Below are positions 7,560-57,745 of a DNA stretch of 64,000 bases, piece after piece. The notes beneath the pieces were generated by a model, which was not told the origin of the DNA, searched no databases, and saw only the letters and a program-made list of their open reading frames with translations. Made by a program: the position numbers and the translations under genes. Within the stretch, counting starts at the first letter, position 1, and each line of letters opens with the position of its first letter. Source of the DNA: Parapedobacter composti (lineage in GTDB: Bacteria > Bacteroidota > Bacteroidia > Sphingobacteriales > Sphingobacteriaceae); the NCBI RefSeq assembly GCF_900112315.1, contig NZ_FOLL01000012.1, forward strand, positions 87,149 to 151,148, given 5' to 3'.

Positions 7560-8735
7560 ATGTCGGCCGAAAAGCGGGTAACGCAACAAATCCGGACGGT
7601 GGAACGTTTGTTGAACGAATATGAGCGGGAGCGGAACATACCTTTGGCCCGTTTTCTAACCGCGTTTTACAAACGTAACCGGCAGATGGGAAGCAACGAC
7701 CGGCGTGTGATATCCCGATTGGCTTATCACTATTTTCGTATAGGCACCGCCTTACCGGTGGCAACCGTGGCTGAGCGGTTAGCGGTTGCGGAATTTCTAT
7801 GCAGTAGCGAAAGTCAGGTAGTTCAATACTTATTGCCAGATTTATACCGGTTCATTCAGGCCACCTCGGACGAAAAATTGGCCTTACTTGAAGCGCATAC
7901 AGGATTCCGGTTGGCGGATGTGTTTCCTTTACAGGGATTGCTGTCGGCCGGTATGGACAGCGCGGTTTTCATCAAAAGCCTATTTATACAGCCTGATTTG
8001 TTTATCCGTATCCGCCGGGGACATCAGCGTGAAGTAACCGCAGCATTAACTGATGCAGGGGTCAGCTATAGGGAGTTGGGTGAATATGCTGTTGCTTTAC
8101 CAAATGGAACCCGGTTAGGACATATCGCAGGCATTACCGGCAAATACGAAGTGCAAGACTATACGTCACAGCAAACGGCCAAGTATGTCCGTGCATCGGC
8201 CGGTGAAAGCTGGTGGGATGCCTGTGCCGGTGCGGGTGGGAAATCGCTCCTGTTAATGGATCATCATCCGGAAACAGCGCTATTGGTATCTGATGTGCGG
8301 GGCAGTATCCTCCGCAACCTGGACGAACGTTTCGATGCCGCAGGCATCAAATCCTATAGAAAAAAAATCATCGACTTAACACGGGATACAACCGCTGTTC
8401 TGGGCAATGAACGGTTTGACGGCATTATCCTTGATGCACCTTGCACCGGTTCAGGGACCTGGGGCCGTACGCCGGAGATGATTTCTTCGTTCAATAAGCA
8501 CTCGATTGATCGGTTTGCCGCGTTACAGACGCATATTGCCGGGAACGTCGTGAAGCACCTTAAGCCGGGGAAGCCGATGGTTTACATTACGTGTTCGGTG
8601 TTTGCCCAAGAAAACGAAAATATCGTTGCTTATCTGCAGGAAAGCCACGGCCTGCACCTGGAGGCTATGGATTTGCTTGCTGGCTATCCTTATAAGGGCG
8701 ATAGCATGTTTGCGGCGCGACTTGTCCGTGGTTAA
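7560..8735 (+). CDS. RsmB/NOP2-family RNA (cytosine-5) methyltransferase
   Basis: SAM-dependent RNA m5C methyltransferase, probably acting on 16S rRNA. 391 residues. SAM motif I is seen as DACAGAGGKSLLL (220-232). The two catalytic cysteines lie in DAPCTGSGTW (Cys295) and YITCSVF (Cys345), the second followed by the family's ENE. The N-terminal ~130 residues resemble the NusB-like helical region of RsmB in a short, divergent form. It lacks the C-terminal PUA-like extension of RsmF types. It is the last gene of the run begun by guaA, with no intergenic terminator upstream. Confidence 0.9.
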   Translation: MSAEKRVTQQIRTVERLLNEYERERNIPLARFLTAFYKRNRQMGSNDRRVISRLAYHYFRIGTALPVATVAERLAVAEFLCSSESQVVQYLLPDLYRFIQATSDEKLALLEAHTGFRLADVFPLQGLLSAGMDSAVFIKSLFIQPDLFIRIRRGHQREVTAALTDAGVSYRELGEYAVALPNGTRLGHIAGITGKYEVQDYTSQQTAKYVRASAGESWWDACAGAGGKSLLLMDHHPETALLVSDVRGSILRNLDERFDAAGIKSYRKKIIDLTRDTTAVLGNERFDGIILDAPCTGSGTWGRTPEMISSFNKHSIDRFAALQTHIAGNVVKHLKPGKPMVYITCSVFAQENENIVAYLQESHGLHLEAMDLLAGYPYKGDSMFAARLVRG

Positions 8736-8998
8736 AGACTTCCGTTAACGGTTATGACCCATTACGGCACATGCCAACAGCACCTTAACTACCCCCTTTC
8801 TTCTGACCAAATCCCCCCGTCTCCCACGGTCCGCTTTGGGCTGGTCCACGGCGTGTCCACAAAATTCCAAAGAAAAGGCAAAGCAGGGGCAAAGCAGTCC
8901 TAAAGATACGGCGGGAGATAGTGGGGAGAAAGTCAGTAAAAAGTAGGGAGAAAGCTACCAAGGTTTCAGGTTCCGACGACGTCCCTGCCCAGTGTGGG
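8736..8998. repeat. Non-coding, repeat-like segment that replaces the thioredoxin 3' end
   Basis: I see no gene here. The segment has short internal repetitions: GGCAAAGCAG twice in tandem (about 8877-8897) and GGGGAGAAAG / AGGGAGAAAG at 8923 and 8945. No reading frame continues the thioredoxin across it. Its base pattern (homopurine on one strand) differs from the flanking genes. It may be a dispersed intergenic element or a recombination scar; I cannot name the family. Confidence 0.35.
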
Positions 8999-9196
8999 AA
9001 CTCCTTTAATCCGAGTGGTGGCTGCTACATGCGGATTTTTATCGACATCGATTTTTATAATGGTGGCTGCCTGGCCAACCCGCCGTTTGACTTGTTCCAA
9101 TATGGGCGCTTGTGTCTGGCAGGGGCCGCACCATGTGGCAAAAAAGTCTACCAATACCGGTTTGTCGCCATGAATCAGTTCCTTAAATGTACTCAT
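8966..9196 (-). CDS. Thioredoxin, truncated at the C terminus
   Basis: 76 residues with a good thioredoxin start: [13 protein letters not shown], active site WCGPC at 22-26, KIDVDKN, and the cis-proline loop GVPTL at 64-68. The homology stops right after VPTL and the frame closes eight codons later (GRDVVGT). Normal proteins of this type run on for about 30 residues carrying the last two beta strands and the final helix; none of the three frames beyond codes for them. The loss would be expected to destabilise the fold, so this is probably a decaying gene, though the redox motif is intact. Another thioredoxin elsewhere in the genome is likely to carry the main function. Confidence 0.75.
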
Positions 9197-9227
9197 GTGT
9201 TTGTATCTTTACCTGATTACAGAATTA

Positions 9228-9235
9228 CAAAGATA
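9228..9235 (-). promoter_or_regulatory. -7 box upstream of the truncated thioredoxin
   Basis: TATCTTTG on the minus strand, matching TAnnTTTG, about 31 nt before the ATG at 9196. A plus-strand near-match TATCTTTA at 9204-9211 could serve the divergent DUF202 gene. Confidence 0.5.
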
Positions 9236-9251
9236 GTGAATTGCTTTTACC

Positions 9252-9548
9252 ATGAATAAAGATCTGATTTTGCGCGAAAGGCTGGCTTTACAGCGCACCA
9301 TATTGGCCAATCAATCCACTTTTCTGGCATTCCTGCGTACGTCTATGTACTTTGCTGTTGCCGGTGTTTCAGTTAATCAGCTGCTTGAAATCCGGGATGC
9401 ATACATCTACGAGTACGCCTTTTTTACGACTTCTGCCATCGTACTGGTTGTCGGGACGGTTAATTTTTTTGTTCACAAAAAGAAAATTGCGCAGAGTGAG
9501 CGACATGTAGGCAACTATCAGTTAGATTTCGAAAACAAAAAAAATTGA
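9252..9548 (+). CDS. DUF202 family small membrane protein
   Basis: 98 residues. The N-terminal part (RERLALQRTILANQSTFLAFLRTSMYF) is the DUF202 hallmark, with the conserved Arg and R-T motif just before the first membrane helix. There are two hydrophobic segments (about 33-48 and 57-76), then a charged cytosolic tail. Family function is not established. It is divergent from the thioredoxin remnant, and no partner gene follows; the downstream inverted repeat at 9622 may end its transcript as well as that of tRNA-Leu. Confidence 0.8.
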   Translation: MNKDLILRERLALQRTILANQSTFLAFLRTSMYFAVAGVSVNQLLEIRDAYIYEYAFFTTSAIVLVVGTVNFFVHKKKIAQSERHVGNYQLDFENKKN

Positions 9549-9621
9549 AGCAGTAGTCGCGTCATTGACGGTGTATGGCACCGGGAGACTTCGCAATCGG
9601 CAGAAACAAATAGGTATTAAC

Positions 9622-9653
9622 GCAAAAAGCACCTTGTTATAGGTGCTTTTGCA
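9622..9653 (-). terminator. Terminator after tRNA-Leu (possibly bidirectional)
   Basis: GCAAAA-AGCACCT and AGGTGCT-TTTGC form a stem around a 6-nt loop. Read on the minus strand it follows the tRNA 3' end by a few bases and ends in CTTTTTG. The T-rich side on the plus strand could also stop the DUF202 transcript. Confidence 0.7.
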
Positions 9654-9659
9654 TTAACG

Positions 9660-9743
9660 TGCCCAGGGAGAGACTCGAACTCTCAAGGGACTTCTCCCAA
9701 CGGCTTCTGAGACCGCAACGTTTACCAATTTCGCCACCTGGGC
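9660..9743 (-). tRNA. tRNA-Leu (anticodon CAG)
   Basis: 84-nt class II tRNA. Acceptor arms GCCCAGG and CCTGGGC pair and the discriminator is A. The anticodon loop is CTCAGAA (anticodon CAG, reading CUG), and the variable arm is long (GGGAGAAGTCCC), as expected for Leu. The T arm carries GTTCGAGTC. The 3' CCA is not encoded. Confidence 0.95.
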
Positions 9744-9835
9744 AGCAATCCCAAACCCTCGGTGGATTTGGGACTGCAAATATAGATTTTTAATGTATAA
9801 ATGAAAAGTAAAAAATAAAAAGGAAATAAATAAAG

Positions 9836-12800
9836 TTATTCCTCTTCATCGTCGTCCGTGTGTAAGATGTCGGTATGCTCTTCGGGCTTGTACGATGCTT
9901 TCAGCGCCGCCAATTTCTTTTTTCCGTAAGCCATCCTGGTAATCAGCACAAACAATACAGGCACAACGAAAATGGCCAGTAACGTTGCGATTAACATCCC
10001 GCCGAACACCGTCCAGCCAATGGTCTGCCGCGCTATGGCGCCAGCGCCTGCCGAATACATCAGAGGCACGATGCCCAAAATAAATGCGAACGAAGTCATG
10101 ATAATAGGTCGTAGCCGCAACTTTACTGCTTCAAGAGTTGCTTTCAGCAATCCCATTCCGATATCCACGCGCTCTTTGGCGAACTCCACGATCAAGATAG
10201 CATTCTTGGCTGCCAAACCGATAATGGCCACAAGCCCTATTTGGGCGTAGATATTATTGTCTAACCGTGGCAGGAATGTCAGCGCCAGAATAGCTCCGAA
10301 TATACCAAGCGGCACAGACAGCAGGATAGAGAAGGGGACCGACCAACTTTCATACAGGGCGGCCAGGAGCAGGAAGACAAATATGATACACAGTGCAAAA
10401 ATCATCAGCGTCATATTGCCCGCCTCCCGTTCCTGTAAACTCAATCCAGAGAACTCGTAAGAATAACCCGTTCCCAAGGTCTGTGCTGCTACTTCTTCAA
10501 GCGCATTTAGTGCATCGCCACTACTGAAGCCCGGGGCAGCGCTGCCCATAACCTCTATGGAGCGGAAGATATTGAAGTGGTTGATGATAGACGGACTCTC
10601 GATAATCCGGTAAGACACCAGTGTGCTTAGCGGTACAGGGTTGCCTTGTTGGTTCCTAACATACAATTTGTTGATATCTGCGATATCCATGCGGAAAGCG
10701 GTGTCAGCTTGGGTTACCACACGGAAGTTCCGGCCATAGCGTGTGAAGTCGTTTACATAGCTATTTCCGAGGAAGGATGAAATGGTGCTGTATACGCTGG
10801 AAATCGGTACGCCCATGCGTTTAGCTTGTTCACGGTTAACCTCTACCAGATAATTGGGGGTTTGCGAATTAAATAACGTATAGGCCATGCCGATCTCCGG
10901 GCGCTGATTGGCAGCCATGAGGAACCGGCTCACCTGCGTCTCGAAGTCTTTGATATCTCCACTGAGCTGGTCGATAATCTGGATGCTAAACCCACCGCTC
11001 GTACCTAAGCCTGGGATTGCAGGGGGTGATACAGGAAGTATGGTGGCTTGCTGAAAACCCGCATATTTCCGCTGTATCCCGTTGATAACTTCTTGGGCAG
11101 TACGATTACGCTCTTCCCACGGATGGAGTTGGATAAAGAACGTACCGCCATTGGGTTTGAACGACCGGTTGAGGAGGTTAATCCCTGCAATGCGCATGAT
11201 ATTTCGGATTTCCGGATTGTCACGTCGCAGGGAATCCGATAAGGCATCCAGCAGGTTGGCCGTGCGCTCGGATGACGCGCCTTCGGGCAAGGTTATCCCT
11301 ACCATCATCACGCCGGCGTCTTCAGTCGGGATAAAGCCTGTAGGTTTTGCCGTAAACAAGCCAACGGTGCCCACATAAATACAGATTAGCAGGATGATAA
11401 CGAGCGGTGCTTTTTTGATGGCAGCGCGTACGCCGTTGGAGTAACGCTTGGTGACCCGCTCAAACCAGGTATTGAACCGGTAGAACAGCCGGTTAACCCC
11501 CCTCGATTTTTCGTTGAACTGCATAGGCTTAAGCAGTAGCGCACACAGAGCCGGGGTGAGCGTTAACGCCACAAATGCGGATAGCAGTACCGATACGGCG
11601 ATGGTAATGGCAAACTGTTGGTAAAGCAGACCCACCATGCCCGGTATGAAGCCCACGGGTACAAACACAGCGGCCAGAATCAAGGCGATGGCAATTACCG
11701 GCGCGGTAATCTCCTTCATGGCTCTTCGCGTGGCTTCCGGCGCTGGTAGCCTGTCATGATCGATATAGTGTTGTACGGCCTCCACTACCACAATGGCGTC
11801 ATCCACCACGATACCAATGGCCAATACGAATGCCAGCATGGTCAGGTTATTGATGGAAAAGCCAAAGAGGTTAAAAAAGATGAAGGTGCCTACTATGGAT
11901 ACAGGGATGGCCAATATCGGAATCAACGTTGCCCGCCAGCTTTGCAGGAAAATGAAAACCACCAGCGTAACCAATATCAGGGCCTCAATCAAGGTATGCA
12001 ATACATTGCTGATGGATTCTTGAACAACGGTCACTGTTTCATAATTGACCACATAATCCATGTCGCTTGGGAAATTGGCCTTTAATTGCTCCAGCGCCGC
12101 GTAAATTCCTTCGGCGGTTTCCACGGCATTACCGCCCGGCATTTGGTTTATCATCATGCCTGAAGCCGTCAACCCATTGAGTTTGTTGGTGATGGAGTAT
12201 GCAAACTCTCCCAATTCTATACGTGCAACGTCCTTTAAGTATACAATAGAACCGTCGGCGTTGGTTTTAATAATTATGTGTTCGAATTGTTCTTCTTGGT
12301 TCAGGTCTCCGTCTAGGATAACGGGGTATTCGAATACCTGAGTGTGCTCTTGGGGGCGGGCGCCGATGCTACCCCCGGGCATTCGGATGTTTTGCTCTTG
12401 GATAGCCGCGTTGACGTCAGCAGGAGTCAGGCCCAGGTTTGAAAGTTTGGTAGCGTCCAGCCATACGCGCATGGCAAACGGCTGCCCAAAGGCCATCACA
12501 TCACCAACACCCTTTACCCGCATCAATGCATCACGTACATACAGGTTGGCATAGTTGGCAAGGAACTTCTGGTCCCGTGTGCCATTGGGAGAAATCAGGG
12601 ATACCATCATCAGCACGTCCGTGTTAGCCTTACGGGTGACAACCCCCAGGCGCCGCACGCTTTCGGGCAGGGATGGCTCTGCAATACCTACACGGTTCTG
12701 CACGTCCAGTGTAGCGATATCGATATCGGTGCCCACATCGAATGTTACGGTAATGGCCGCCCGGCCGTCGGATGTACTGTTGGATTGCATATACCGCATG

Positions 12801-47169: not shown

Positions 47170-49059
47170 ATGAACGAAAAAGGAAACATATCCATCCATA
47201 CCGAGAATATCTTTCCGGTAATCAAGAAATTCTTGTATTCAGATAACGAAATTTTCCTAAGGGAGCTGGTATCAAATGCCGTTGATGCTACCCAAAAAAT
47301 TAAGCGTTTATCGTCGCTGGGCCAGTACCAAGGTGAGCTCGGGGATATGACCATCGACGTTGCTTTTGATGAAAAGGCGAAGACCATCACCATATCTGAT
47401 AACGGAATCGGCATGACGGCCGACGAAGTTAAGAAATACATTAACCAGATAGCATTTTCCGGCGCCACGGAGTTTGTGGAGAAGTTCAAGGAAGCCAAGG
47501 ATGCCAATGAAATCATCGGCCGTTTCGGCTTGGGTTTTTATTCGGCGTTCATGGTGGCCGACAAGGTGGAAATCCAGACCTTATCCTATCAGGAGGGTGC
47601 GGCACCCGCCCGCTGGGTATGCGATGGCAGCACGTCGTATGAGATTACAGAAGGAAACCGCGACAGACGGGGCACCGACGTAATTCTGTATATCAATAAA
47701 GACGGCGAAGAATTCCTGAATAAAGGAAGGTTGCAGGAAATACTGGATAAATACGGCAAATTTCTACCTGTTCCCATCCGCTTTGGTAAACGGACCACCA
47801 GCGAGCCCGACGGAGAGGACGGCGACGGTAAGCCTAAGTACAAGTCGGTTGAAGTAGATAACATCATCAACAATACCAACCCGGCCTGGACTAAAGCGCC
47901 GGCTGATCTCAAGGATGACGACTATTTGGAGTTCTACCGGGAGCTTTATCCGTATTCCTTTGACGAACCCTTGTTCTGGATTCATCTTAATGTTGATTAT
48001 CCCTTTAATCTTACCGGTATCCTGTATTTTCCAAAACTTAAGGAAAACTTCGAAATACAGAAAAACAAAATCAAGCTGTTTTCCCGCCAGGTATTCATCA
48101 CCGACGAGGTGAAGGATATCGTCCCCGAATTCCTGATGCTGTTACATGGTGTCATCGATTCGCCGGATATCCCCTTAAACGTATCGCGCAGCTTCTTGCA
48201 AGCCGACAGCAATGTAAAGAAAATCAACGCGCACATTACCAAAAAGGTGGCCGATAAACTGGCGGAATTATTCCGGACAGATCGCAAAGGCTTCGAGGAG
48301 AAGTGGAAAGACATAGGCCTTTTTGTGAAATATGGTATGCTCAGTGACGATAAGTTCGCAGACAAGGCGCATGATTTCTGTTTGGTAAAGAATACCGAGA
48401 ACGAAATGTTTACGTTAAAGGAGTATGCCGAAAAGGTGAAGGATATTCAACAGGACAAAGACGGTCAGGTGGTATACCTTTATACCAACGACGCCGCCCA
48501 GCAGGATGCCTACGTGGCCGCGGCCAAAGATCGCGGGTACGACGTGTTGGTGTTTGACTCGCCGATAGATAGTCATTTTGTTGCTTATCTGGAGCAGAAA
48601 TCAGAAAAGACGCAATTGAAGCGGGTCGACGCCGACGTAGTAGACAAGCTCATCCCCAAAGCAGAGAGTAAACCATTGGAGCTTACCGAAGAGGAGAGCA
48701 AGCGGGCTGTGGAACTTTTCGAAAAGGCCATTGACCGTACAGACATGAAAGTGCATGTCGAAGCGCTCAGTGAACAGGAATTGCCCGTTACCGTAACCAT
48801 AGATGAGTTTATGCGCCGGATGAAGGATATGGCACAAACAGGTGGGGGCATGAATTTTTATGGTTCCATGCCAGATAATTATAAGGTCACCGTAAATGCC
48901 AGCCATCCGTTGGTTAAACGCATCCTAACCGGTACAAACGAAGAAGAGCAGCAACAATTAGCCAAGCAGGCGTTTGATTTGGCGTTGCTTTCACGCGGTT
49001 TGCTCACGGGAAATGCGCTAACCCATTTCGTTAAACGCAGCGTCAGTTTAATTGGCTAA
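47170..49059 (+). CDS. htpG: Molecular chaperone HtpG (Hsp90)
   Basis: 629 residues from ATG 47170 (MNEKGNISIHTENIFPVIKKFLYSDNEIFLRELVSNAVDA); the frame is open further upstream without homology. The ATP site (LVSNAVDATQK, DNGIGMT, RFGLGFYSAFMVADK) is intact, with the middle domain catalytic Arg (NVSRSFLQ) and a C-terminal dimerisation domain (VNASHPLVKRILT). ATP-dependent folding aid, normally heat-inducible. It is followed by the tRNA-His promoter after 40 bp. Confidence 0.96.
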   Translation: MNEKGNISIHTENIFPVIKKFLYSDNEIFLRELVSNAVDATQKIKRLSSLGQYQGELGDMTIDVAFDEKAKTITISDNGIGMTADEVKKYINQIAFSGATEFVEKFKEAKDANEIIGRFGLGFYSAFMVADKVEIQTLSYQEGAAPARWVCDGSTSYEITEGNRDRRGTDVILYINKDGEEFLNKGRLQEILDKYGKFLPVPIRFGKRTTSEPDGEDGDGKPKYKSVEVDNIINNTNPAWTKAPADLKDDDYLEFYRELYPYSFDEPLFWIHLNVDYPFNLTGILYFPKLKENFEIQKNKIKLFSRQVFITDEVKDIVPEFLMLLHGVIDSPDIPLNVSRSFLQADSNVKKINAHITKKVADKLAELFRTDRKGFEEKWKDIGLFVKYGMLSDDKFADKAHDFCLVKNTENEMFTLKEYAEKVKDIQQDKDGQVVYLYTNDAAQQDAYVAAAKDRGYDVLVFDSPIDSHFVAYLEQKSEKTQLKRVDADVVDKLIPKAESKPLELTEEESKRAVELFEKAIDRTDMKVHVEALSEQELPVTVTIDEFMRRMKDMAQTGGGMNFYGSMPDNYKVTVNASHPLVKRILTGTNEEEQQQLAKQAFDLALLSRGLLTGNALTHFVKRSVSLIG

Positions 49060-49099
49060 GGTTTTTTTAAAAATTGTTGTTGGATTGTTATCCGATTAT

Positions 49100-49107
49100 T
49101 ACCTTTG
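49100..49107 (+). promoter_or_regulatory. -7 box of the tRNA-His gene
   Basis: TACCTTTG, an exact TAnnTTTG match, 14 nt before the mature tRNA 5' end. Confidence 0.65.
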
Positions 49108-49121
49108 CAGTCCAATAACAC

Positions 49122-49196
49122 GGTGGGTATAGCTCAGTTGGTTAGAGCACCAGATTGTGGTTCTGGGGGTCGTCGGTTCGAGCCCGATTATCCACC
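49122..49196 (+). tRNA. tRNA-His (anticodon GTG)
   Basis: Acceptor GTGGGTA pairs with TATCCAC. The extra G at position -1 and C73 (His identity elements) are both encoded, the anticodon loop is TTGTGGT, and the T arm has GTTCGAGCC. CCA is not encoded. Confidence 0.96.
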
Positions 49197-49207
49197 CGAA
49201 AATTAGG

Positions 49208-49236
49208 AAAGCTGCCCTTTTAGGCAGCTTTTTTTA
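49208..49236 (+). terminator. Terminator between tRNA-His and convergent ggpPS
   Basis: AAAGCTGCC (49208-49216) pairs with GGCAGCTTT (49223-49231), followed by T residues; the last T bases overlap the minus-strand stop codon of ggpPS. Confidence 0.85.
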
Positions 49237-51501
49237 TGCCGTCTCTTGAGCTTCTGAATGGTCACGCACAGAATTTTGCAATCCCTCTAAGAAGTCCTGC
49301 CCCCAGCGCTGCACATCATAGTGCTTCACTATTTCGGCCAAACGCTTCATCCGGAGTGATTTTTCCGTTTCACCCATGGTTAGCGCGGTCAGCAGACTGT
49401 CTTTCAGGTCCCGGATGTCATAAGGGTTTGTGCGTATCGCATCGGGCAGCTCTACGGAAGCCCCTGCAAACTCCGAAATCACCAATGCTCCCAAAGGTTC
49501 TTCCAGCAATCCCTGTACAGCAACGTATTCCTTGGCCACGAGGTTGAGCCCGTCACGCAGGGGCGTAATCCAAGCCACGTCTGAAACCGCATAATAGGAG
49601 ACTACCTCTTCAAAGGGCACGGAGCGGAAAAAGAAGCGTATGGGGGTCCATTCCAAACTTGAATATTTCCCGTTTATCCGGCCAACGGCCTGCTCGATTT
49701 CGTGCTGTATCCTGTCATACACTTTCATCCCTTGGGATGGCGGTGTGCAAATGTTGATGAGCTCCAGTTTTCCATGATATTCCGGATGTTCTTCGAGGAA
49801 TTCGCCGAAGGCCTCAATTTTTTCCAGCGGCCCTTTCACGTAATCCAGTCGTTCAACGGACAGGACGATTCGCTTGCCGCGTGTACGGTTCCGCATAGTT
49901 TCGATGCGGGTTTTGGTGGCCGGGTCGTCATAGATGCGCTGGATGTTTTCCCGGTTTACCCCCACGGGCTGCGCACCAAGCCGAATCGTGCGGTCTCCCA
50001 CGGCAATCAATTTGGTCATCTTGTCGATGCCCAATGCGCAGCTGTAGGTGAGGAACTGTTTAGCAGCATTGATGCGGCTCAATACCTTCACGGGCGCATG
50101 GCTCTTCACCACATCTACGAAGTTTTCCACATACCGGGGGATATGGAAGCTGATGAAATCACATTGCAGCAGGCTGCCGACGATTTCACGGCGCCATGGA
50201 ATAATATTGAAGATATCGGCAGGCGGGAAGGCTGTATGGTGGAAAAAGCCAATTTTCAGGTCAGGCCGCTGCCGTCGGAGGAACGCCGGAACCATCCATA
50301 AATTGTATTCGTGTATCCACACCAACGCGTTGGGTTCAGCCTCCTCGGCTACACGGTTGGCAAACAGTTCGTTGATGCGCAGGTAGTGCTGCCAGTGATC
50401 GTGGTTGAATTTGGCTTTGCTGATGAACGAAAAAATGGTGGGCCAGAAGGCTTCTTTTGAAAAGACACGGTAAAACAAATCGATGTCTTTTTTCGGTAAC
50501 GGGATGATCGATGCCCTCAGGTTAGGATATTTCTCCCTGTCGATGTGCGGCGTTAAGTCGGGGTTATCGCCCAACAGTCCTGCTTCCTCTTCACCGATCC
50601 AGATACCCGGGCGTCCGCTGGTAAAAAAGCCGAGCAACGAAGGGATAATGCCGTTGGGGCTGCGGGGAGGGATACGTTTGGGCAACCCGTCTTGTACATC
50701 GGTGTCAAAAGGCAGGCGATGGTAAACCATGAGCAGTTGCTTGCTGTCGGTTTCGGTATCCGGTGCCGGCACCTCCACCATGCGATGATAGGGGCGGAAG
50801 GGCTGGAAGTGCGCCATTGCTTCCATTATACCACCCGCGCCGGGAAGCGCGGCCATATATACGTTTGGGAAAGACTTTACGGCATCAATTAACCGCGGCT
50901 CGGATTCTCCTACCGCCACACCTTTGTACCCGCTTTCGAAAAGCGCAAAATCATTGTATGTGTCGCCGGCCACCAATACCTGATCTTCGGGAAATCCGAT
51001 ATGGCGCAGCAGCTTGGTCAACGTGCTGCCTTTATTAACCCCTTGGGGCAGGATATCCAAGTACCTGTCCGCGGATGTTAATACATCGCATTGCAGCTCG
51101 GAAGCAATCTGCCGCACCGCATCGATATCAGTGGTTTCGTCATAGTAGAACGAGCAGCGCCGTTGCTGTGGCACTTCCTGGGGGTTCAGGCCGGGTATTG
51201 ACGCCAGTTTCCTCTTAATGACGAAGTTTCCGGGCCATTGTTGTTCAATGCCCGATTGGATCGGAACCACGGGATTCAATTTTTTTCCATCCACCACCGT
51301 GGCGCCCACGTCGGCAATTATATAGTCCGGATCGGGTACCAACGGATCATGCAGCAATGGCAACACACTTTCAATGCCCCTGCCCGTCACGAAAACGAGC
51401 TGTACATCCGGATGGTTGCGGATCAACTGATAAAGTTGCTGTTTCTTTTCGGCTGTGCCGCCAAGAAAGGTTCCATCAAGGTCTGTAGCTAATAGCATCA
51501 T
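49234..51501 (-). CDS. ggpPS: Bifunctional glucosylglycerol-phosphate phosphatase/synthase-like (HAD + GT20 fusion)
   Basis: 755 residues. N-terminal HAD phosphatase of the sucrose-phosphatase type: DLDGT at 7-11, FVTGRG near 37-42, GDTYND near 179-184. C-terminal GT20 glycosyltransferase from about residue 255, with VWIHEYNLWMVPAFLRRQ, FFHHTAFPPADIFNIIPWRREI, CDFISFHIPRYVENFVDV, SVERLDYVKGPLEKI and ITPLRDGLNLVAKEYV. The FFHHT-x-FP and FHIPRYVENF forms are those I know from glucosylglycerol-phosphate synthases; trehalose-phosphate synthases read FFLHIPFP and differ after it. The phosphatase-first order also matches the fused GgpPS known from Pseudomonas and Stenotrophomonas, and is the reverse of OtsA-OtsB fusions. 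Likely makes the osmolyte glucosylglycerol from ADP-glucose and glycerol-3-phosphate. Trehalose-type activity remains possible. Confidence 0.75.
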   Translation of the reverse strand: MMLLATDLDGTFLGGTAEKKQQLYQLIRNHPDVQLVFVTGRGIESVLPLLHDPLVPDPDYIIADVGATVVDGKKLNPVVPIQSGIEQQWPGNFVIKRKLASIPGLNPQEVPQQRRCSFYYDETTDIDAVRQIASELQCDVLTSADRYLDILPQGVNKGSTLTKLLRHIGFPEDQVLVAGDTYNDFALFESGYKGVAVGESEPRLIDAVKSFPNVYMAALPGAGGIMEAMAHFQPFRPYHRMVEVPAPDTETDSKQLLMVYHRLPFDTDVQDGLPKRIPPRSPNGIIPSLLGFFTSGRPGIWIGEEEAGLLGDNPDLTPHIDREKYPNLRASIIPLPKKDIDLFYRVFSKEAFWPTIFSFISKAKFNHDHWQHYLRINELFANRVAEEAEPNALVWIHEYNLWMVPAFLRRQRPDLKIGFFHHTAFPPADIFNIIPWRREIVGSLLQCDFISFHIPRYVENFVDVVKSHAPVKVLSRINAAKQFLTYSCALGIDKMTKLIAVGDRTIRLGAQPVGVNRENIQRIYDDPATKTRIETMRNRTRGKRIVLSVERLDYVKGPLEKIEAFGEFLEEHPEYHGKLELINICTPPSQGMKVYDRIQHEIEQAVGRINGKYSSLEWTPIRFFFRSVPFEEVVSYYAVSDVAWITPLRDGLNLVAKEYVAVQGLLEEPLGALVISEFAGASVELPDAIRTNPYDIRDLKDSLLTALTMGETEKSLRMKRLAEIVKHYDVQRWGQDFLEGLQNSVRDHSEAQETA

Positions 51502-51726
51502 ATATTTGAATATTTTTTAAGCAACCGGAAAGCCGCCCAACCGTTGGCAACTATCCTTTTGCAATTAACTTAGAAAACGGGAAATTGATATTTTTACAGG
51601 TGACCCAATACCTGCCCCTTTATTTCGGCACATTTCATCCTGATAAAAGGGATTTTATAGATCAATACGAGGCCAGAGAATGCCTCAAGACGATGCGAAT
51701 ATAGCGATTTTTTTTGAGAAACGCAA

Positions 51727-53052
51727 CTATTCCACGTAGACTTTCACGGAATCGGTATTCAATCGTGATTTCAGCCACGCTTCCAGCTGGGGGCGGTTTC
51801 CTTCGGTTTTCCGGCGGTCGGTTGTGCCGATAAACAGTGAAAGGTAATTATGGCGGCGCAAGGAATCATCATAAACCACTTGATCGGCCATGCCGCAGGA
51901 GGTGATTTCAGGGAAAAGCGGCTTCAGCTCCTGCAACAGCTGCCGGCCCAGTTGCCTTGAGCGGTTGATGCTGTCCTGGGCATGGAGTGCCACGGCCAAA
52001 TCCGACCGGAGGCGGTTGATTTCCGCCTGCTGGGCATTATTGGCCAGCAGGCGTTCGTTATTTTCATCGTCAAGCGAAAATCCCTGTTGGATGGTTACCG
52101 CGGCACCTTCCAGATCATAGAAGCGCGTCTTTGATGCAACTTCTTCCTTCACTTCCTCCGGAATGAGCCGGCCGCCATATATAAGGCGAATCGTCCGTTT
52201 GCCCGGGTCGATTTCTGATTTTAACAAGTAATCGCCCTCGATGTGGCTCTCATTACGGATATAGGCATTGGCATTGCGTGTAAACCGTTCCTGCTGCACC
52301 AGCAGATAACCGAAGTAAACACTGGGCAATACGGTAACAATCACGATTGCGCTCACCCAGCGGTTCGCCGTTTTTTTTATGCTTTGGTCGGTAACCTGCC
52401 AAATCGGATAGTTGAGAAAGCGTACCGTTATCAGCGTGGCAACAGCTATAAATACCGTATTGATGGTAAAAAGGTAAAAAGCACCGAAAAAGTAGTTCCA
52501 GTTTGCTGTAGCCAGACCGTAGCCTGCGGTACAGAGCGGCGGCATGAGTGCCGTGGCTATTGCCGCGCCGGGAATAACGTTACCCTTCTGCTTACTTGAA
52601 AGGGCTACAATCCCCGCCAGACCGCCAGCAAGGGCCACAATAACATCGTAGATATTGGGTTGTGTGCGTGCCAGCAGTTCGGAATGCGCTTCGCTCAGGG
52701 GCGTAGCCAGAAAATACAGCGTCGATGCAAAGAGGCCTGAGGCCACGGTAAAACCGTAATTGACGAGCGACCGTCTAAGTAAGTTAAAATCATAGATAGC
52801 CAGGCTGTATCCCAAGCCCAGTATCGGTCCCATTAGAGGCGATATCAGCATGGCCCCGATAACAACAGCTGTAGAGTTTACGTTCAGGCCCACGCAGGCA
52901 ATCAGAATGGCAAAAATCAGAATCCAAAGGTTGGTGCCTTTGAAATAAATACCTTTCTCTACCGTGTCGTGTATGGTATGGTAATCCTCACGCTCGGATG
53001 TAAGGTTGAACTTAGCGAGTATCTTCTGGATATCCACGGTCCGAAGATACAA
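51727..53052 (-). CDS. DUF389 family membrane protein
   Basis: 441 residues. Six to seven helices in the first half with the family core NLWILIFAILIACVGLNVNSTAVVIGAMLISPLMGPILGLGYSLAIYDF, then a cytosolic or periplasmic C-terminal region of mixed structure with a coiled segment (LANNAQQAEINRLRSDLAVALHAQDSINRSRQ). Function unknown. It lies between yqgE (49 bp upstream) and ggpPS (225 bp downstream), all on the minus strand. Confidence 0.88.
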   Translation of the reverse strand: MYLRTVDIQKILAKFNLTSEREDYHTIHDTVEKGIYFKGTNLWILIFAILIACVGLNVNSTAVVIGAMLISPLMGPILGLGYSLAIYDFNLLRRSLVNYGFTVASGLFASTLYFLATPLSEAHSELLARTQPNIYDVIVALAGGLAGIVALSSKQKGNVIPGAAIATALMPPLCTAGYGLATANWNYFFGAFYLFTINTVFIAVATLITVRFLNYPIWQVTDQSIKKTANRWVSAIVIVTVLPSVYFGYLLVQQERFTRNANAYIRNESHIEGDYLLKSEIDPGKRTIRLIYGGRLIPEEVKEEVASKTRFYDLEGAAVTIQQGFSLDDENNERLLANNAQQAEINRLRSDLAVALHAQDSINRSRQLGRQLLQELKPLFPEITSCGMADQVVYDDSLRRHNYLSLFIGTTDRRKTEGNRPQLEAWLKSRLNTDSVKVYVE

Positions 53053-56201: not shown

Positions 56202-56275
56202 GCGCCTATAGCTCAGTTGGTTAGAGTAGGAGACTCATAATCTCTTGGTCCCTGGTTCGAGCCCAGGTGGGCGCA
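56202..56275 (+). tRNA. tRNA with CAT anticodon (Met, or Ile2)
   Basis: 74 nt: acceptor GCGCCTA pairs with TGGGCGC (one G-T pair), discriminator A. Anticodon loop CTCATAA gives CAT; T arm GTTCGAGCC. CCA is not encoded. CAT may be elongator Met, or Ile2 if modified by TilS; I favour elongator Met. It lies 190 bp before an integrase gene and is the likely left attachment site of the island. Confidence 0.93.
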
Positions 56276-56281
56276 CTTTCA

Positions 56282-56319
56282 AAAAAAGCCGTTTTTCTTT
56301 ACGAAAAATGGCTTTTTTT
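56282..56319 (+). terminator. Terminator after tRNA-Met
   Basis: AAAAGCCGTTTTTC and GAAAAATGGCTTTT pair with one mismatch around a 5-nt loop, then a T-run. Confidence 0.8.
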
Positions 56320-56327
56320 CGTTTATT

Positions 56328-56352
56328 AGGGCGCTTTAGGAGCACGCGCCCT
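56328..56352. repeat. Inverted repeat between tRNA-Met and the integrase gene
   Basis: AGGGCGC (56328-56334) and GCGCCCT (56346-56352) flank an 11-nt centre. The arms echo the GGGCGC of the tRNA acceptor end; a possible integrase arm or core site. Confidence 0.4.
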
Positions 56353-56464
56353 ACGCTGTATCGGATACCCCGAAACGGTGTGTTTTACAAAGTTTTTTGT
56401 TGAACTTCACGCAAAACCGTAACAAATAGGTAACGGAAATTTTTGCGTGGCAATTTAAAAGATT

Positions 56465-57745
56465 ATGGCCACCGTAAGCGCAAAGGTTTATGAGCACCAC
56501 AAGAAAGCCGATGGAACGTACAATGTAAAGATCTGCGTCCATCACAAAAGTGAAAGAAAGTTTATTGACACCAATCACTTTGTTGTCAAGAAGCAACTCA
56601 CCAAAGATTTAAAAATCAAAGATCCTTTTATTGCGGACAAGGTCGAACAACAGCTAAGGGATTATCGAAAGATGATTAGCGACCTCGACGATCGATTGGA
56701 TTACTTCACCGCCGAATCCTTACGAGATTACTTGCGTGATAAAGATGAGGACGTCGACTTTATCAATTTTTGTACTCAACATATTGAACGTCTAAAAAAA
56801 GAGGGACGCAGTGGTTCGGCCAAAAATCAAGCAGTAATCCGTAATAGCCTTGTCGATTATTTCAAACGTCCATCCGTTTCCATTAAGGAAATCAATTCTA
56901 ACATGCTAATGGCGTATGAGCGTTATCTAAGATCCGAGCGGAAAATGACACGCTACAATCAAGATAGAAAACCTGTTGTTAAGACTGAAAAGGGATTGTC
57001 TGATAGTGGATTGCACAATCACATGAGAGATTTGCGAACATTATTTAATGCCGCAAGAGAAGTGTATAATAACGAAGACCTCGGCATCTACCGCATCAAG
57101 CATTATCCATTCAAGAAATACAAAGTTGGTTCCCCACCCCTCACCAAGAAAAGGAACAATACACTTGAACAAGTGCTGACCATAAGAGATTGTGTAACCG
57201 TCCCCGGAAGCCGTGCGGAATTGGCAAAGGAGCTTTATATGCTTTCGTTCTACCTCTGTGGCATAAATGCGGTAGACTTGTATCAAATAACAGAACGGGA
57301 CGTTAGAAATGGACGTTTAGACTATAACCGATCCAAGACACAAGGCAAGCGCAAGGACCATGCCTTTATCAGTATTAGCATTGTCGATGAAGCCAAGCCT
57401 TTATTGGAAAAATATTTAGGCAAATTACGTGAACGCTATTCAAGTGCCGATGCCCTTAATTGGGCATTATGTAAAGGCATGGAGCAATTACGCAAATTGA
57501 CAAGCATACCCGAAATAACTTTGTATTGGGCGAGACACACATTTGCAAACACGGCGAGGAATGATTGTCGTATGAGCAAAGACGATGTGGCTCTTGCGCT
57601 CAATCACGTTGACGAGGGTAATCGCACAACAGATATTTACATTGCCAAAGATTGGAAAATTGTGGATGACGTTCAGCGGAAAGTCATTGCACAGCTTAAA
57701 AAAGTTGAAATCAAGGTGATGAAGAAAATACAGGCAAAAAACTGA
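56465..57745 (+). CDS. Tyrosine-recombinase integrase (Bacteroidota island type)
   Basis: 426 residues. The N-terminal ~90 residues fit an arm-type DNA-binding domain (ATVSAKVYEHHKKADGTYNVKICVHHK), followed by a SAM-like domain (FINFCTQHIERLKKEGRSGSAKN). In the catalytic domain, Lys is in NRSKTQGKRKDH, Arg in YWARHTFANTA, His in LNHVDEGNRTTDIYI with the likely nucleophile Tyr. The first catalytic Arg is not seen at its usual place (FYLCGINAVDL in place of G-x-R), a change also familiar in Bacteroidota integrases. It excises and inserts an island, most likely at the adjacent tRNA-Met. Confidence 0.88.
   Translation: MATVSAKVYEHHKKADGTYNVKICVHHKSERKFIDTNHFVVKKQLTKDLKIKDPFIADKVEQQLRDYRKMISDLDDRLDYFTAESLRDYLRDKDEDVDFINFCTQHIERLKKEGRSGSAKNQAVIRNSLVDYFKRPSVSIKEINSNMLMAYERYLRSERKMTRYNQDRKPVVKTEKGLSDSGLHNHMRDLRTLFNAAREVYNNEDLGIYRIKHYPFKKYKVGSPPLTKKRNNTLEQVLTIRDCVTVPGSRAELAKELYMLSFYLCGINAVDLYQITERDVRNGRLDYNRSKTQGKRKDHAFISISIVDEAKPLLEKYLGKLRERYSSADALNWALCKGMEQLRKLTSIPEITLYWARHTFANTARNDCRMSKDDVALALNHVDEGNRTTDIYIAKDWKIVDDVQRKVIAQLKKVEIKVMKKIQAKN

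Follow-up and report, generated by a model that had tools for sequence, protein, structure and literature searches.

A phosphatase-first GT20 fusion protein of Parapedobacter composti that probably makes glucosylglycerol and not trehalose

The locus studied here raises the question of whether a fused phosphatase-glycosyltransferase of Parapedobacter composti makes trehalose or another osmolyte. The gene, ggpPS, lies on the reverse strand at 49234..51501 of the window, i.e., the whole 64,000-nucleotide stretch of contig NZ_FOLL01000012.1 that was analysed, and encodes from an ATG start a predicted glucosylglycerol-phosphate phosphatase/synthase of 755 aa. By Pfam, the HAD phosphatase domain S6PP (PF05116, 181 bits) occupies residues 2-233 (50803..51498, reverse strand), and the transferase domain Glyco_transf_20 (PF00982, 427 bits) occupies residues 257-742 (49276..50733, reverse strand), so that the phosphatase-first, synthase-second order read in the first-pass annotation is confirmed. 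The two motifs it pointed out in the GT20 half are both present, FFHHTAFP at residues 419-426 (50224..50247, reverse strand) and FHIPRYVENF at residues 452-461 (50119..50148, reverse strand). The frame is not a chance one, since the 119 matches besides the protein itself among the best 120 of 2545 in a protein search are 60-87% identical to it over 97-100% of the query. With a probability of roughly 87%, ggpPS belongs to the GgpS/GgpPS group as a phosphatase-GT20 fusion and makes the osmolyte glucosylglycerol (GG) and not trehalose. This assignment is based on the domain order, the family model TIGR02398, the tree position, the loss of an arginine of the OtsA acceptor site (Arg300), and the residues of the HAD half, as well as on a separate OtsA-OtsB-type gene in the genome and on gpsA, kup or mscS beside ggpPS in five of ten relatives.

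TIGR02398, the NCBIfam model of glucosylglycerol-phosphate synthase, is the sole curated GT20 model that ggpPS passes (605.9 bits, cut-off 569). A rearranged trehalose-6-phosphate synthase/phosphatase that makes trehalose would have the GT20 fold in common with ggpPS; however, the OtsA model TIGR02400 failed (416 bits, cut-off 564.85), as did PRK14501, the model of the OtsA-OtsB fusion (456 bits, cut-off 634), in which the domain order is reversed. Moreover, the host genome (4.62 Mb) contains a second GT20 gene of the OtsA-OtsB type, L001 (729 aa, synthase first), which passes PRK14501 (989 vs 634 bits) and TIGR02400 (567.7 vs 564.85 bits) and fails TIGR02398 (375.9 bits). L001, and not ggpPS, is the gene predicted to make trehalose. 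The view that annotation pipelines usually label proteins such as ggpPS as trehalose synthases did not hold, as glucosylglycerol-phosphate synthase is the first name of 22 of the 23 named relatives among the matches listed. Trehalose-phosphate synthase comes first in the remaining one (P0022, so named by NCBI), which is a point in favor of the trehalose enzyme, and the second, UniRef name of P0080 starts with "Alpha,alpha-trehalos". The closest named relatives among these matches are from Parapedobacter (81% identity in P. indicus and 79% in P. deserti). The glucosylglycerol assignment is thus ordinary in that the database names of the relatives already carry it.

By placing the GT20 half in a tree, the two families can be separated. 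The full tree holds 90 GT20 halves: 22 fused Bacteroidota, 15 fused Pseudomonadaceae, 22 unfused proteobacterial, 8 cyanobacterial, 4 other fused, 3 actinobacterial, and 16 OtsA-type sequences. A careful tree was built with 60 of these rows; the 30 left out include the three Actinobacteria, the long-branch GT20 O_L129, one of the four other fused proteins, 10 of the 15 Pseudomonadaceae, and 4 of the 22 Bacteroidota; approximately unbiased (AU) tests were run on 44 of the 90 rows with quick trees. The Stenotrophomonas and Pseudomonas sp. OA146 enzymes are represented by genomes presumed to be Pseudomonadaceae. This family, that of G611, was presumed from how strongly G611 matches OprF (260.6 bits). 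OtsA is split from the rest at 100 in the 90-row tree and at 100/100 in the 60-row tree, in which the Bacteroidota fused proteins form a clade at 100/100 and group with the Pseudomonadaceae fused GgpPS at 99/99. Placement inside OtsA was rejected, both with Bacteroidota OtsA-OtsB (p-AU 2.28e-05) and with the OtsA of E. coli, Shinella, and Deinococcus (p-AU 0.000328). The clustering with OtsA that would have spoken for trehalose is therefore not found, and the GgpS-side membership of ggpPS is firm. The identities of the GT20 half run from 50-53% (15 Pseudomonadaceae fused proteins) through 39-42% (8 cyanobacterial) and 37-41% (22 unfused proteobacterial) to 29-35% (16 OtsA). The first-pass annotation, which preferred a glucosylglycerol-phosphate enzyme over a trehalose synthase, is well supported by the TIGR02398 pass, the failure of the trehalose models, the tree, and the AU tests.

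The substrate-binding residues agree with the tree. According to the accessible text of PMC1769515, E. coli OtsA contacts glucose-6-phosphate through Arg9, Trp40, Tyr76, Trp85, and Arg300 and UDP-glucose through Gly22, Asp130, His154, Arg262, Asp361, and Glu369, and these residues are conserved in the proteins with trehalose-6-phosphate synthase (TPS) activity reported up to then. Residue rows were read from the GT20 alignment of 16 OtsA and 74 GgpS-type rows, in which the Trp printed as 40 in that paper counts as 41 and the other ten listed positions agree. In ggpPS, Arg9, Tyr76, and Trp85 are kept, along with Gly22, His154, Arg262, Asp361, and Glu369 of the donor site, which would also suit a trehalose synthase. 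On the other hand, Arg300, present in 16/16 OtsA rows, occurs in 0/74 GgpS-type rows and is Ser589 in ggpPS, and the Trp40 equivalent is Glu304; the loss of two residues conserved in the TPS-active proteins covered there, taken together with the models, the AU tests, and L001, makes a trehalose product highly improbable. The Arg300 position is Ser or Ala in Bacteroidota, Ala in Pseudomonadaceae and cyanobacteria, Ala or Asn in the unfused and other fused proteins, and Glu in Actinobacteria. OtsA Asn81 (16/16 OtsA rows) is Lys in 74/74 GgpS-type rows (Lys349 in ggpPS). The Thr of the first motif stands where 16/16 OtsA rows have Ile, and its H-H-T is kept in 130/130 Bacteroidota fused proteins and 15/15 Pseudomonadaceae ones. 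The Pro of FFHHTPFP, which every unfused (22) and cyanobacterial (8) row keeps, is Ala in ggpPS and Ala (74) or Ser (56) in the Bacteroidota proteins. This Bacteroidota set of 130 leaves out the window's own protein (P0001), and 119 of its members are the best-scoring of the 2545 search matches. No Arg at OtsA 300, Lys at Asn81, and HHT replacing xHI could together serve as a sequence test against trehalose synthases.

The less ordinary part of the finding is the pocket variant of the Bacteroidota. The Asp130 position is Glu in 22/22 Bacteroidota tree rows and, in the 130 proteins, Glu in 115 and Asp in 15; this replacement (Glu398 in ggpPS) is thus common without being universal. At the Trp40 position, 88 proteins have Glu, 40 have Trp, and one each has Ser and Gln; at the Arg300 position, 87 have Ser, 42 have Ala, and one has Gly. 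These two positions (304 and 589 in ggpPS) are paired, Glu with Ser in 86 of 88 and Trp with Ala in 39 of 40, so that 86 of the 130 proteins have both Glu and Ser. Positions 265, 303, 345, 449, 451, and 482 covary with them, in counts that are inflated by the common ancestry of the rows. The coupled changes at the acceptor positions, the six further linked ones included, together with Glu398 in 115/130, might mean that ggpPS glucosylates a small polyol phosphate other than glycerol 3-phosphate, giving a different heteroside osmolyte. However, linked changes on one branch can reflect common ancestry instead of selection, and a relative whose protein has the Glu304/Ser589/Glu398 form (G022, L097) carries a glycerol-3-phosphate dehydrogenase gene directly before ggpPS. 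A different acceptor is improbable.

The question of whether ggpPS is active at all can be addressed with the same 130 proteins. A pseudo-enzyme or regulatory GT20 protein without transferase activity is barely credible, as R262 (Arg9), R551 (Arg262), K556 (Lys267), D650 (Asp361), and E658 (Glu369) are kept in 130/130, and D7, D9, T11, and D184, which we take to be the catalytic residues of the HAD half, are intact in 130/130 as well. Judging from these residues and from related structures, a mechanism for ggpPS may be proposed. ADP-glucose, or possibly UDP-glucose, would serve the rear GT20 half as donor for a retaining glucosyl transfer to sn-glycerol 3-phosphate. Removal of the phosphate by the front HAD half would follow, releasing 2-O-alpha-glucosylglycerol. 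In Candida Tps1, Tyr89 and Arg318 lie on the phosphate and Asp143 on the O2/O3 hydroxyls of glucose-6-phosphate (PMC5527307, accessible portion); in the alignment, these residues correspond to Y344, S589, and E398 of ggpPS. With Arg300 lost to Ser589, two residues may hold the phosphate of the shorter acceptor, namely, the conserved Tyr344 (OtsA Tyr76) and Lys349, of which the lysine could take over part of the phosphate grip, and Glu398 would place a longer carboxylate at the site that in Tps1 holds the acceptor hydroxyls. The substrate, the product, and an involvement in the response to osmotic or drought stress are inferred from sequence.

In some relatives, the neighbors of ggpPS point to osmotic stress and to glycerol 3-phosphate. 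The gene for NAD(P)H glycerol-3-phosphate dehydrogenase (gpsA) lies directly upstream of ggpPS in G014, with a 4-base overlap of the first-start frames, and in G022, 1 base apart. The K+ transporter gene kup immediately precedes ggpPS in the same orientation in G005 and G006, and mscS immediately follows it, likewise in the same orientation, in G023, so that gpsA, kup, or mscS is a neighbor in 5 of the 10 relative loci. As to the donor, Synechocystis GgpS requires ADP-glucose, according to the part of PMC6004087 that is accessible. A match to GlgC, the source of ADP-glucose, exceeds the cut-off in the host genome (432.7 vs 424.9 bits). GlgC-like proteins with 420-433 bits are found in 11 of 12 genomes (the host, nine others with ggpPS, and G002, which lacks it), and the cut-off is exceeded in 6 of the 12. 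The genome without one is G014 (99% complete, single contig), in which no GlgC-like gene was detected (best 52 bits) despite its gpsA-ggpPS pair (L173, ggpPS at 8292-10538). G014 therefore fits poorly with an enzyme that uses only ADP-glucose, and this one genome hints at a different donor there.

It is tempting to combine the pocket and donor observations. A second chemical design of glucosylglycerol synthase may have arisen in Sphingobacteriaceae, in which a coordinated remodeling of the acceptor and donor pocket (Glu at both Asp130 and Trp40, Ser at Arg300, and the six linked positions) permits UDP-glucose as donor instead of ADP-glucose, or another small polyol phosphate as acceptor; we regard this as tentative and rather unlikely. 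If it were true, the cell would produce trehalose and a heteroside osmolyte in parallel, each from its own sugar pool.

Several observations weigh against the assignment of ggpPS to glucosylglycerol synthesis. The protein lies just 37 bits over the TIGR02398 cut-off, compared with scores of 681-891 for the 68 passing Pseudomonadaceae, and it has Glu304 and Glu398 where all Pseudomonadaceae, unfused, and cyanobacterial rows have Trp and Asp. Within the window, ggpPS has tRNA-His and HtpG to one side and a DUF389 protein to the other, and neither gpsA nor a transporter or GG-degrading gene adjoins it. No gpsA, kup, or mscS neighbor was recognized in 5 of the 10 relative loci (G001, G003, G004, G007, and G008), in which part of the neighbors were checked with Pfam. 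A GG phosphorylase-like gene (TIGR03852) exceeds the cut-off in 0/12 Sphingobacteriaceae genomes, but likewise in 0/14 controls, so that this negative carries little weight. Finally, two other branchings are not rejected by the AU test, namely, OtsA rooted on the Bacteroidota GgpPS branch (p 0.19) and a clade joining the Bacteroidota proteins to the unfused and cyanobacterial ones (p 0.31). Because these two alternatives stand, the branching order within the GgpS side is tentative, as is a sister relation of the Bacteroidota and Pseudomonadaceae proteins.

The closest known systems include the bifunctional GgpPS of Stenotrophomonas rhizophila, Pseudomonas mendocina, Azotobacter vinelandii, and Marinobacter adhaerens, in which the phosphatase is N-terminal and the synthase C-terminal; in Marinobacter, ggpPS is usually followed by ggp (both from the accessible text of PMC10873239). 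These four were likened to ggpPS by description, and the sequence comparison is with the presumed Pseudomonadaceae fused proteins. The latter share the one-chain order and form the nearest tree group, but ggpPS has Glu at Asp130 and Trp40, and the Bacteroidota have Ser or Ala at Arg300 (Ala in theirs). Cyanobacterial GgpS (Synechocystis Sll1566 type) resembles ggpPS in tree side, HHT motif, Asn81-to-Lys replacement, and Arg300 loss; however, it stands alone with a separate phosphatase gene, keeps Trp40 and Asp130, and is 39-42% identical. The proteobacterial HAD and GgpS pairs (Dinoroseobacter, Falsirhodobacter, Tistrella) have the same domains in the same order, as neighboring genes often behind gpsA; unlike ggpPS, they are two genes, and their GT20 falls in another clade, although AU permits the grouping. 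OtsA and OtsA-OtsB share the GT20 fold and most donor-site residues with ggpPS, whereas the synthase comes first in OtsA-OtsB, and Arg300, Asn81, and Ile155, present in 16/16 OtsA rows, are changed in ggpPS.

With regard to distribution, TIGR02398 was passed in 11 genomes when 60 relatives were searched, the host genome among the 11; within its genus, 8 of 9 genomes pass. In 10 of the 11 (the exception is G023), there is a further GT20 match that stays under the cut-off. When the phylum was sampled evenly, 2 of 395 genomes matched at E 1e-120, namely, the host and one of the same family. The gene is thus frequent in its own family and rare in the phylum. In the G611 family, 68 of 348 genomes pass TIGR02398, all in open frames of at least 757 codons, as for a fusion, and the 15 proteins fetched carry a HAD half that is 48-51% identical to that of ggpPS. 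A sample of Gammaproteobacteria gave matches in 4 of 369 genomes and no fusions; three have frames of 516-560 codons, and L028 has a 797-codon frame with the HAD as a separate gene in another frame. Unfused pairs were surveyed in the best 80 of 556 scanned loci outside Bacteroidota. In 71 of the 80, ggpS is immediately preceded by a HAD gene of its own, with gpsA before the HAD gene in 57 of the 71; the remaining nine are cyanobacterial (seven) or cut by a contig end (two). Annotated cases of HAD followed by ggpS are those of Dinoroseobacter shibae and Falsirhodobacter algicola.

GG synthesis is described, in the accessible literature, in cyanobacteria and a few Proteobacteria, to which the presence of a fused pathway in Sphingobacteriaceae and Chitinophagaceae would add the Bacteroidota. 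No account of a Bacteroidota GgpPS was found in the limited part of the literature that was read, which includes text of PMC8880816, PMC5809485, and PMC5780487 and from which subscription papers are absent. A Parapedobacter genome paper (PMC7500135) mentions osmotic-stress genes and, in its accessible text, the words trehalose, glycerol, and compatible do not occur. Through the natural pocket variants, one could test what sets donor and acceptor choice in GT20.

Other fusions were also observed. Four fused HAD-GgpS proteins (P0245, P0246, P0247, and P0300) are scattered within the unfused proteobacterial clade; therefore, gene fusion may have occurred several times. Actinobacterial plasmids carry phosphatase-first HAD-GT20 fusions, named only HAD-IIB family hydrolase (L008 4899-7133, L161 4965-7076, and L162 3983-6079). 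The two tested are far below the GT20 cut-offs (TIGR02398 324 and 292 bits), and the three lie on a long branch; HHT and the Lys are conserved in them, whereas the Arg300 position is Glu.

The site of ggpPS differs within the genus, as seen when the window gene was compared with L166-L172. It lies near HtpG and YqgE in G003 and in the window (with the DUF389 gene between), beside YqgE in G008, beside kup in the same wider neighborhood in G005 and G006, and beside a LutB-like gene near AspS in G001, G004, and G007, and the congener G002 has no match over the cut-off. The gene may move or be re-acquired. Directly behind the ggpPS stop is a terminator-like hairpin of 10 pairs (49208..49231, reverse strand); with 6 terminator-like sites in 48900-51900 vs 4.2 +/- 1.8 in shuffles, it is weak evidence of a terminator by itself. 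The DUF389 gene (51727-53052) is directly upstream on the same strand and has no counterpart in the fetched stretch of the 10 relative loci. A phage-integrase-domain protein (PF13102) at 56202-57745 starts about 190 bases past a tRNA-Met gene, which is the layout of an integrated element, and a gene of the same cluster is found near ggpPS in G008 (L172 13196-14608).
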